Below, in pieces: positions 29,826 through 31,281 of a DNA stretch of 64,000 nucleotides; position 1 is the first letter of the stretch, and each line of letters opens with the position of its first letter. Source of the stretch: Sinorhizobium sp. 8-89. Lineage in GTDB: Bacteria > Pseudomonadota > Alphaproteobacteria > Rhizobiales > Rhizobiaceae. The translations under genes and the position numbers were made by a program. The stretch is taken from the NCBI RefSeq assembly GCF_030124325.1, contig NZ_JASKLR010000001.1, positions 584,200 through 648,199 on the forward strand, in the 5' to 3' direction. The notes beneath the pieces are model-generated. The model had not been told where the DNA came from, searched no databases, and was given only the letters and a program-made list of their open reading frames with translations.

Positions 29826-30308
29826 ATGACGGACGAGATCCATACTGGCGGGTGCCAATGTGGCGCGATCCGCTTTCGCGTCGAGGGAACGCTCGGCGAC
29901 GCCTCCGTTTGCCATTGTCGAATGTGCCAGAAGGCGAGCGGGAACTTCTATCTGCCGCTCGTTTCCGTGCGCGGCGCAACGATCACCTGGACGCGCGGCG
30001 AGCGCCGGCGCTTTCAGTCGTCGAACGCCGTCTGGCGCGGTTTCTGCGGTGATTGCGGCACACCGCTGACCTACGAGGCGCCGGATGGCATGGCGCTGGC
30101 AATCGCAGCCTTCGACAAGCCCCAAGGTATCATGCCGACGGTCCAGTGGGGTATCGAGGCGAAGCTGCCCTATGTCGACCATGTGCCCGACCTTCCGGGC
30201 GAAGAGACCATGACGGATGTGGCGGCGGGCTCGTTCCTCGCCGATCTCGTTTCCTATCAACACCCCGATCACGACACCGAAATCTGGCCACCGGAGGCAA
30301 AGCGATGA
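29826..30308 (+). CDS. GFA (glutathione-dependent formaldehyde-activating/CENP-V) family protein 1
   Basis: The 160-aa zinc protein has the GFA fold with cysteine clusters [23 protein letters not shown] and GFCGDCGTPLTYE. GFA enzymes speed glutathione adduct formation with formaldehyde; many relatives have unknown substrates. AAAGGAGCG precedes the ATG. It is the first of three adjacent paralogues and overlaps the next by 4 bp (ATGA). All cysteines are intact, so it is not a decayed copy. Confidence 0.88.
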   Translation: MTDEIHTGGCQCGAIRFRVEGTLGDASVCHCRMCQKASGNFYLPLVSVRGATITWTRGERRRFQSSNAVWRGFCGDCGTPLTYEAPDGMALAIAAFDKPQGIMPTVQWGIEAKLPYVDHVPDLPGEETMTDVAAGSFLADLVSYQHPDHDTEIWPPEAKR

Positions 30309-30781
30309 CCGATGCTGTACGAACAGGAGGATGCCAGTGCGGAGCCGTGCGCTTCCGCATCCACGGAAAGCTCGGACGCCCGTCCATATGCCATTGCCGC
30401 ATGTGCCAGAAGCAGTTCGGGTCGTTCTTTTCGGCGCTCGTCACGGCTCCGAAGGATGGGGTCGAGTGGACGCGCGACGAGCCGAGCTACTTTCAGTCCT
30501 CGGTCAATATCGACCGCGGCTTCTGCCCGAAATGCGGAACGCCGCTGACTTACCGGCATCCGGGCGGACTCGAAATCGCGATCGGCGCCTTCGATGACCG
30601 CTCCGACCTCGCGCCGCAAATCCAGGTCAATTACGCCGCGCGGCTGCCGTGGGTCGAAACGATCTTCGAGCAGCCGGTGCACGACGATCCGGATTATTAT
30701 GCCCGGCAGGAACAGATCATCTCCTTCCAGCACCCCGATCACGAGACGGATCAGTGGCCGGTGTCGGGGGCCTGGTCGTGA
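30305..30781 (+). CDS. GFA family protein 2
   Basis: The 158-aa paralogue of its neighbours shows [23 protein letters not shown] and GFCPKCGTPLTYR, and the C-terminal end QHPDHETDQWP shared with copy 1 (QHPDHDTEIWP). It overlaps copy 1 by 4 bp and copy 3 by 1 bp (TGATG). The substrate is not known; formaldehyde or another aldehyde is a family-based guess. Confidence 0.88.
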   Translation: MTDAVRTGGCQCGAVRFRIHGKLGRPSICHCRMCQKQFGSFFSALVTAPKDGVEWTRDEPSYFQSSVNIDRGFCPKCGTPLTYRHPGGLEIAIGAFDDRSDLAPQIQVNYAARLPWVETIFEQPVHDDPDYYARQEQIISFQHPDHETDQWPVSGAWS

Positions 30782-31281
30782 TGATCAGACGAATCTTTAC
30801 TGGCGGCTGCCAATGCGGCGCGGTGCGCTACCGCGCCGAGGGCACGCTCGACGACCCGCATCTTTGCCATTGCCGCATGTGCCAGAAGGCGGCAGGCAAC
30901 TATTTCCTGCCGCTCGCCAACATCAAGCGGGAAGATTTTCTTATCACTCGCGGGGAGCCGTCCTGGTTCCAGTCGTCGGATGTCGTCAGGCGCGGCTTCT
31001 GCCGCGACTGCGGTACGCCGCTCTTCTACGACATGCCGGGCGAAGGTTTCCTGAACATCGCACTCGGCTCGCTGGACGACCCGGACGACGTACAGCCCGT
31101 CTATCAGTCCGGCATCGAGTCGCGCGTGTTGTGGTTTTCTCATCTGCCGCGCCTTCCTGAAAGGGAGACCGATGACGGCAGCGAAGAATCTGCGGCGCGT
31201 CATTTGCGCGTGCTGGAATCCAACCGCCAGCATCCCGACTACGAAACCGTGCATTGGCCACCCAAGGAAGACCTGTTGTGA
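30781..31281 (+). CDS. GFA family protein 3
   Basis: The 166-aa paralogue shows [23 protein letters not shown] and [13 protein letters not shown]. Its end ([13 protein letters not shown]) again resembles copies 1 and 2. It overlaps the proline iminopeptidase gene start by 4 bp (GTGA), so four genes are read in tight coupling. The three copies differ at many positions, which points to an old duplication. Confidence 0.88.

Follow-up and report, generated by a model that had tools for sequence, protein, structure and literature searches.

The genes for Gfa (S-hydroxymethylglutathione synthase) commonly adjoin those for glutathione-dependent formaldehyde dehydrogenase or S-formylglutathione hydrolase, an arrangement that is not defining. 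Gfa is a member of the GFA/CENP-V domain family (PF04828), formerly DUF636. According to passages of PMC4682968, Gfa of Paracoccus denitrificans binds glutathione and is a homodimer whose zinc sites face each other. Its zinc ligands are C31/C33/C99/C102 and C52/C54/C57; one of the two zincs is structural and tetrahedral, the other exposed and trigonal. In the same passages, time courses under the conditions tested showed no faster S-hydroxymethylglutathione formation with Gfa, whose catalysis is disputed, while cellular evidence that the authors cite still ties Gfa and CENPV to formaldehyde metabolism. The expansion of GFA/DUF636 proteins in rhizobia was already noted in 2005 (PMC554113, excerpts), with sets of 13 in S. 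meliloti, 14 in M. loti and 16 in B. japonicum (PMC554113, PMC9069715); the excerpts of these two papers describe neither a tandem array nor its synteny or tail. PA2722 of Pseudomonas aeruginosa appears in PMC9736018 as a member of the GFA family, with a promoter bound by the TetR-like regulator PA3973; the excerpts of that paper give no biochemical function for it. No account of the array presented below was met in the literature searched, supplements lying outside that search.

The window, i.e. the whole stretch of 64,000 nucleotides of Sinorhizobium sp. 8-89 DNA that was analysed, carries three adjacent GFA-family genes, gfa1, gfa2 and gfa3 (Table 1). The preliminary description had them overlapping by 4 and 1 bp and then running into a proline iminopeptidase gene, and both the gene calls (gfa1/gfa2 4 bp, gfa2/gfa3 1 bp) and the TIGR01249 match of pip bear this out. 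The gfa3/pip overlap is 4 bp when pip is started from GTG 31278, which is the simplest choice, the same frame opening earlier at TTG 31254. pip is the final gene of the overlapping run, and the array would be translated as a coupled run with it. cysS ends 42 bp upstream of gfa1 and cimA lies downstream of pip, both being conserved syntenic neighbours. A scan of 28200-32400 gave no promoter-like site (shuffle mean 1.0) and five terminator-like sites (against 3.2), and Rfam returned nothing at gathering score within the window. A 669-aa open frame at 28263-30272 (-), antisense to cysS and gfa1, is in all likelihood not a gene but a shadow cast by the GC-rich coding strand.

Table 1. Features of the GFA array and its neighbours (positions within the window).
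Feature	Position	Strand	Description
cysS, cysteine--tRNA ligase	28383..29783	+	TIGR00435 448.2 bits vs cut-off 340
gfa1	29826..30308	+	ATG to TGA, 160 aa, GFA-family zinc protein; PF04828 75.0 bits
gfa1 C-terminal tail QHPDHDTEIWPP	30258..30293	+	subfamily signature, QHPD..T..W
gfa2	30305..30781	+	ATG to TGA, 158 aa, GFA-family zinc protein; PF04828 79.7 bits
gfa2 C-terminal tail QHPDHETDQWP	30728..30760	+	pattern QHPD..T..W
gfa3	30781..31281	+	ATG to TGA, 166 aa, GFA-family zinc protein; PF04828 82.3 bits
gfa3 C-terminal tail, 12 residues	31228..31263	+	pattern QHPD..T..W
pip, prolyl aminopeptidase	31278..32240	+	TIGR01249 396.3 bits vs cut-off 259.75
cimA, citramalate synthase	32312..33928	+	TIGR00977 608 bits vs cut-off 450

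A search with gfa2 gave matches in 33/33 same-genus genomes (own included), each with two matches, gfa2 itself and a neighbour at 48-52% identity about 480 bases away; the presence of gfa3 was looked at in 30 of the 33. All 30 same-genus loci fetched, one of them the window's own, have the array between cysS and pip; loss of the array in close relatives was not seen. The order cysS-gfa1-gfa2-gfa3-pip is read in 29 of these loci, and in the remaining one a single open frame spans gfa1 and gfa2. With starts placed via alignment to those of the window, the frames overlap at 29/29 gfa1/gfa2 junctions (4 bp in 24, 1 bp in 3 and 8 bp in 2), at 29/30 gfa2/gfa3 junctions (1 bp in 18 and 4 bp in 11, the remaining one being a 2-bp gap) and at 30/30 gfa3/pip junctions (4 bp in 28, 7 and 11 bp in the others). 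The median pairwise dN/dS is 0.104 for gfa1, 0.058 for gfa2 and 0.104 for gfa3, and the highest value is 0.234 (405/406, 412/435 and 434/435 pairs with usable dS, the pairs not being independent). Each copy is thus under purifying selection, and gfa2 is the most constrained. The gfa3 protein is 78-86% identical to those of the nearest named loci, which come from Sinorhizobium and Ensifer.

The single frame joining gfa1 and gfa2, 340 aa long, was found in Ensifer sp. LCM 4579 (L021:2979-4001), and L120 carries a protein identical to it, probably from the same strain. By eye, it arises from a one-base shift near the end of gfa1. Since this is one base in one strain and the gfa1 tail is broken, the frame may be a sequencing error or decay, and it was set aside as firm evidence.

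The three proteins belong to the GFA family by every testable feature. They pass the curated PF04828 cut-off of 24.3 bits (Table 1) and carry Cys10, 12, 29, 31, 34, 74 and 77, which make up the CxC, CxCxxC and CxxC sets. All seven cysteines are invariant in the 29, 30 and 30 same-genus copies of gfa1, gfa2 and gfa3, the window's included, which confirms the earlier claim that each paralogue keeps its zinc cysteines intact. The genome (7.06 Mb, 103 contigs) holds 19 PF04828 matches, and gfa1-gfa3 are the only adjacent ones. Counts in 18 same-genus genomes, this one included, range from 9 to 22, or from 12 to 22 once a 70%-complete genome with nine matches is left out; the 12 genomes examined from other families of the order have 1-10 matches in ten cases and none in two.

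Such an array could be thought to supply extra S-hydroxymethylglutathione synthases for formaldehyde detoxification. It has the Pfam family and the two cysteine clusters in common with Gfa, and the authors of PMC4682968 (excerpts) still point to cellular findings that connect Gfa and CENPV with formaldehyde metabolism. However, the array proteins score 13.7, 24.7 and 24.9 bits with TIGR02820, whose equivalog cut-off is 234.55 bits, whereas the genome has two further genes, outside the array, that do exceed it, with 344.4 and 328.2 bits. Membership of the array in Gfa was rejected on these scores. Furthermore, no glutathione, aldehyde or formaldehyde gene is present among the immediate neighbours of the array (cysS, pip, cimA and rarD), and the catalysis by Gfa is itself disputed in the excerpts mentioned. 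A role in formaldehyde detoxification through additional Gfa copies is therefore very improbable, and labelling gfa1-gfa3 as S-hydroxymethylglutathione synthases would, judging from the profile scores, be unsupported. That the array is old and conserved, and that its GFA-family proteins are something other than Gfa, can be stated with high confidence.

As to its age, the window's copies share 43-49% amino-acid identity, with pairwise pS of 0.55-0.61 and dS of 1.0-1.3, and near-identical synonymous sites were not seen. Since the same-genus orthologues already stand at a median pS of 0.47-0.51, synonymous sites cannot date the duplications. The phylogeny was more informative. In a quick tree of 98 proteins, with SH-aLRT as its only support measure, gfa2 forms a clade of 14 rows (support 99, starred) and gfa3 a clade of 6 rows (99, starred) made up of the window, S. 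meliloti, E. adhaerens, Mycoplana, Shinella and R. herbae. The gfa1 side (94, not starred) groups with other genera less strongly; a FastTree grouping places 58 proteins in the gfa1 lineage. Together, gfa1, gfa2 and one long Hoeflea row make a 43-row clade (98, starred). In an AU test on a set that left out 16 distant paralogues, forcing the window's three genes into one clade was rejected (p-AU 1.07e-05, at a cost of 377 log units). The three copies thus fall in separate lineages common to other genera, and the duplications must be older than the split of these genera. Recent amplification, which the preliminary description had doubted, is ruled out by the tree and the AU test; the synonymous counts agree, although saturation keeps them from dating it.

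In addition, 80 named loci were compared. They are the best gfa3 matches among a larger number that matched, so that the conservation figures given here lean high. Among the 72 loci with cysS or cimA beside GFA genes (L091 was removed, its cimA match being distant at 30% identity, and LCM 4579 was taken as three-copy), one copy was found in 8, two in 13, three in 49 and four in 2. The array had been called unusual. This holds within the present genome, where it is the only adjacent GFA trio, but not among relatives, where 49/72 syntenic loci are three-copy; among close relatives the array is not unusual. Gene orders, read from gene ends with the window's locus counted, were 1-3-2 in 24 loci, 1-2-3 in 23, 2-3 in 5, 1-3 in 3, 3-1 in 3 and 3-1-2 in 2, with others, 2-1 among them, occurring once or twice. 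All eight single-copy loci are gfa3-type, in a set that was drawn with gfa3, and 66/150 genomes of the order match gfa3 at E <= 1e-25, with one match in 50 and two to four in 16. The gfa3-type is likely the ancestral type, and the array likely grew stepwise from a gfa3-like gene at the cysS-cimA site, the root and the deep forks among gfa3-type rows being weakly supported (SH-aLRT 84-89) and losses perhaps also having played a part.

A fourth, more diverged GFA gene lies near or within the array at L077:6488-6964 and L080:3012-3995. Around gfa3-type genes off the cysS site, no common neighbour theme was found in nine frames from five of the eight such loci: the neighbours were HbpS-like, histidine kinase, alaS, MFS and OpgC genes, and four of the nine frames had no match.

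The layout of the array also bears on whether the three proteins could be subunits of a mixed assembly, e.g. heterodimers in which facing zinc sites form a joint cleft. Frames that overlap at practically every same-genus junction (29/29, 29/30 and 30/30) would suit such an assembly, as would the facing zinc sites of the Gfa homodimer (PMC4682968, excerpts), the joint gfa1-gfa2 frame of LCM 4579 and the lack of any gfa1-only or gfa2-only locus in the set. Yet the LCM 4579 frame may be an error or decay, the gene order varies, with other loci reading 2-3, 1-3, 3-1, 2-1 or 3 alone, and selection of the loci by gfa3 similarity could have passed over any locus with gfa1 or gfa2 alone. We regard a mixed assembly as unlikely but credible. 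That the array represents a new GFA subfamily whose mixed dimers bring QHPD-capped Cys3-Zn sites face to face, with a joint thiol-adduct activity that none of the proteins has alone, is a speculative and distinctly unlikely proposal; if true, a heteromeric zinc-thiol enzyme would have been kept across much of the Rhizobiaceae.

The predicted model of gfa3, the one protein modelled, has a pLDDT of 92.2, and its best solved matches are PA2722 (8ajq, Z 15.9), RSP_2168 (3fac, Z 11.4) and Gfa (1x6m, Z 11.0). gfa3 is accordingly predicted to adopt the beta-tent fold. The alignment to these three GFA structures runs to about residue 125, with the tail beyond it, and the confidence of the model drops in the tail (block means of 89, 77 and 60 from residue 141 on). 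This tail, QHPDxxTxxW, sits outside the Pfam GFA domain. Across 79 aligned members (the window's three and 76 selected out of 200), no variation is seen in 30 columns, the tail residues Q150, H151, P152, D153 and T156 (gfa3 numbering) among them. The paralogues had been said to keep the cysteines and to have diverged elsewhere; this is too simple, since only seven of the 30 invariant columns are Cys. The pattern QHPD..T..W occurs in 197/200 array-type proteins, the three exceptions still keeping QHPD, and even a looser HPD..[TS]..W is found in 0/16 of the other GFA proteins of this genome.

Ten distant same-order homologues all keep QHPD within about 10 residues of their end. Their stops follow QHPDHD, QHPDHE, QHPDRD or QHPDHDT, or come a few residues later. 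The in-frame TGA was considered as a selenocysteine codon in these homologues and the idea was rejected, 10/10 stops being the ordinary protein end just past the tail. At L132-L134, from one other family of the order, the homologues stop right after QHPDHD, without TxxWP.

A few other positions are fixed in a lineage-specific way, namely 17 (F/F/Y in gfa1/gfa2/gfa3), 27 (S/S/H), 42 (Y/F/F) and 96/98 (F/F/L), while W55 is constant in gfa1 and gfa2 and variable among gfa3 types. Position 27 lies two residues ahead of the first exposed-site cysteine. As far as alignments can indicate, the invariant residues and the common tail suggest a shared chemistry with tuning, and purifying selection combined with lineage-fixed positions would fit distinct roles; different substrates for the three copies are possible. 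The shared residues and tail would be just as expected if the proteins had a common chemistry, were subunits of a heteromer or were kept for dosage. If the copies were interchangeable and retained for quantity, signature residues and a tail common to all three would be expected, but the 43-49% identity, the long-separate lineages, some lineage-fixed residues and the unequal constraint, tightest in gfa2, speak against redundancy, to which we give little credence.

The proteins might also be non-enzymatic, serving as metal or redox sensors or as protein-binding modules in the manner of CENP-V and other beta-tent proteins. The beta-tent relatives cereblon and MSS4 are binding modules (PMC4287342, excerpts). 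However, this wider group matches the gfa3 model at Z 6.6 or less, and a Z under 8 indicates a shared arrangement at most; an exposed three-cysteine site and a QHPD tail that are essentially invariant are better fitted by a small-ligand site. A non-enzymatic role is unlikely, though it deserves to be kept in view.

pip is present at 55/57 cysS/cimA loci with gfa2 and at 4/15 without it (named loci, L091 removed; for single-copy loci, pip was looked for in flanks of 4 kb, and some loci are cut by contig ends). Two Mycoplana loci (L028 and L034) have three GFA genes, gfa2 included, and no adjoining pip; in the L028 genome nothing passes the pip equivalog cut-off. The idea that the array and pip are functionally tied was not retained, as relatedness explains the association equally well and Mycoplana has gfa2 without pip. 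Among acid-sensitive mutants of R. tropici, excerpts of PMC5936775 report a prolyl aminopeptidase (RS05920) and a GFA gene (RS15005). Because a second pip above the cut-off was present in 3/6 genomes checked, including Rhizobium sp. BK313 (L047), RS05920 is not assignable to the array pip, and RS15005, being far from RS05920 by tag number, is probably outside the array. This acid-sensitivity link is only a lead.

Taken together, the best explanation of the whole, which we put forward tentatively and as somewhat short of an even bet, is an old array of GFA/CENP-V-type zinc proteins that grew stepwise, is coupled with pip and encodes thiol- or adduct-binding proteins. Each protein would be a beta-tent by homology, with a structural zinc on C10, C12, C74 and C77 and an exposed three-cysteine zinc on C29, C31 and C34. 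The most likely ligand of the exposed site would be a thiol, glutathione for instance, or an adduct of that thiol with some small electrophile such as an aldehyde; the three copies would most likely differ in the adduct or condition served, and the QHPD tail may help to form the exposed site. It is homology to Gfa alone that makes thiol-adduct handling the best guess, and Gfa, the only characterised relative used, is a remote guide at 19% identity in the structural alignment.

The name GFA invites the label "formaldehyde-activating enzyme", and the array is a clear instance where this label is unsupported. With paralogues retained over a long time, a signature of its own subfamily and a synteny that does not change, it is well suited to the study of non-Gfa GFA proteins; should it prove functionally dull, the finding would be an ordinary tandem duplication. 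The family is thus an ordinary one; its tandem arrangement here is well kept and uncharacterised, and the subfamily is conserved and of a known kind.

Compared with the PF04828 family, the array proteins are alike in profile match, in the seven zinc cysteines and in the predicted fold of gfa3, but about 50 residues extend past the Pfam match and close in the QHPDxxTxxW tail. Both zinc cysteine clusters of P. denitrificans Gfa (TIGR02820, PDB 1x6m/1xa8) align with those of the array, its ligands falling on C10/C12/C74/C77 and C29/C31/C34 in the profile alignment once a two-residue tag is allowed for, and 1x6m matches the gfa3 model with an rmsd of 3.3 over 123 residues at 19% identity. Unlike Gfa, the array proteins lie far below the equivalog cut-off, have an unaligned C-terminal part and are not encoded beside formaldehyde genes. 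The nearest solved fold is that of PA2722 (rmsd 2.4 over 115 residues, 36% identity to gfa3), and RSP_2168 of Rhodobacter sphaeroides matches the gfa3 model with an rmsd of 2.5 over 101 residues; the chains of both (132 and 108 residues) are shorter than gfa3, and the alignment stops ahead of the tail. The GFA count of this genome, 19, fits the rhizobial DUF636/GFA expansion known from excerpts of PMC554113 and PMC9069715.
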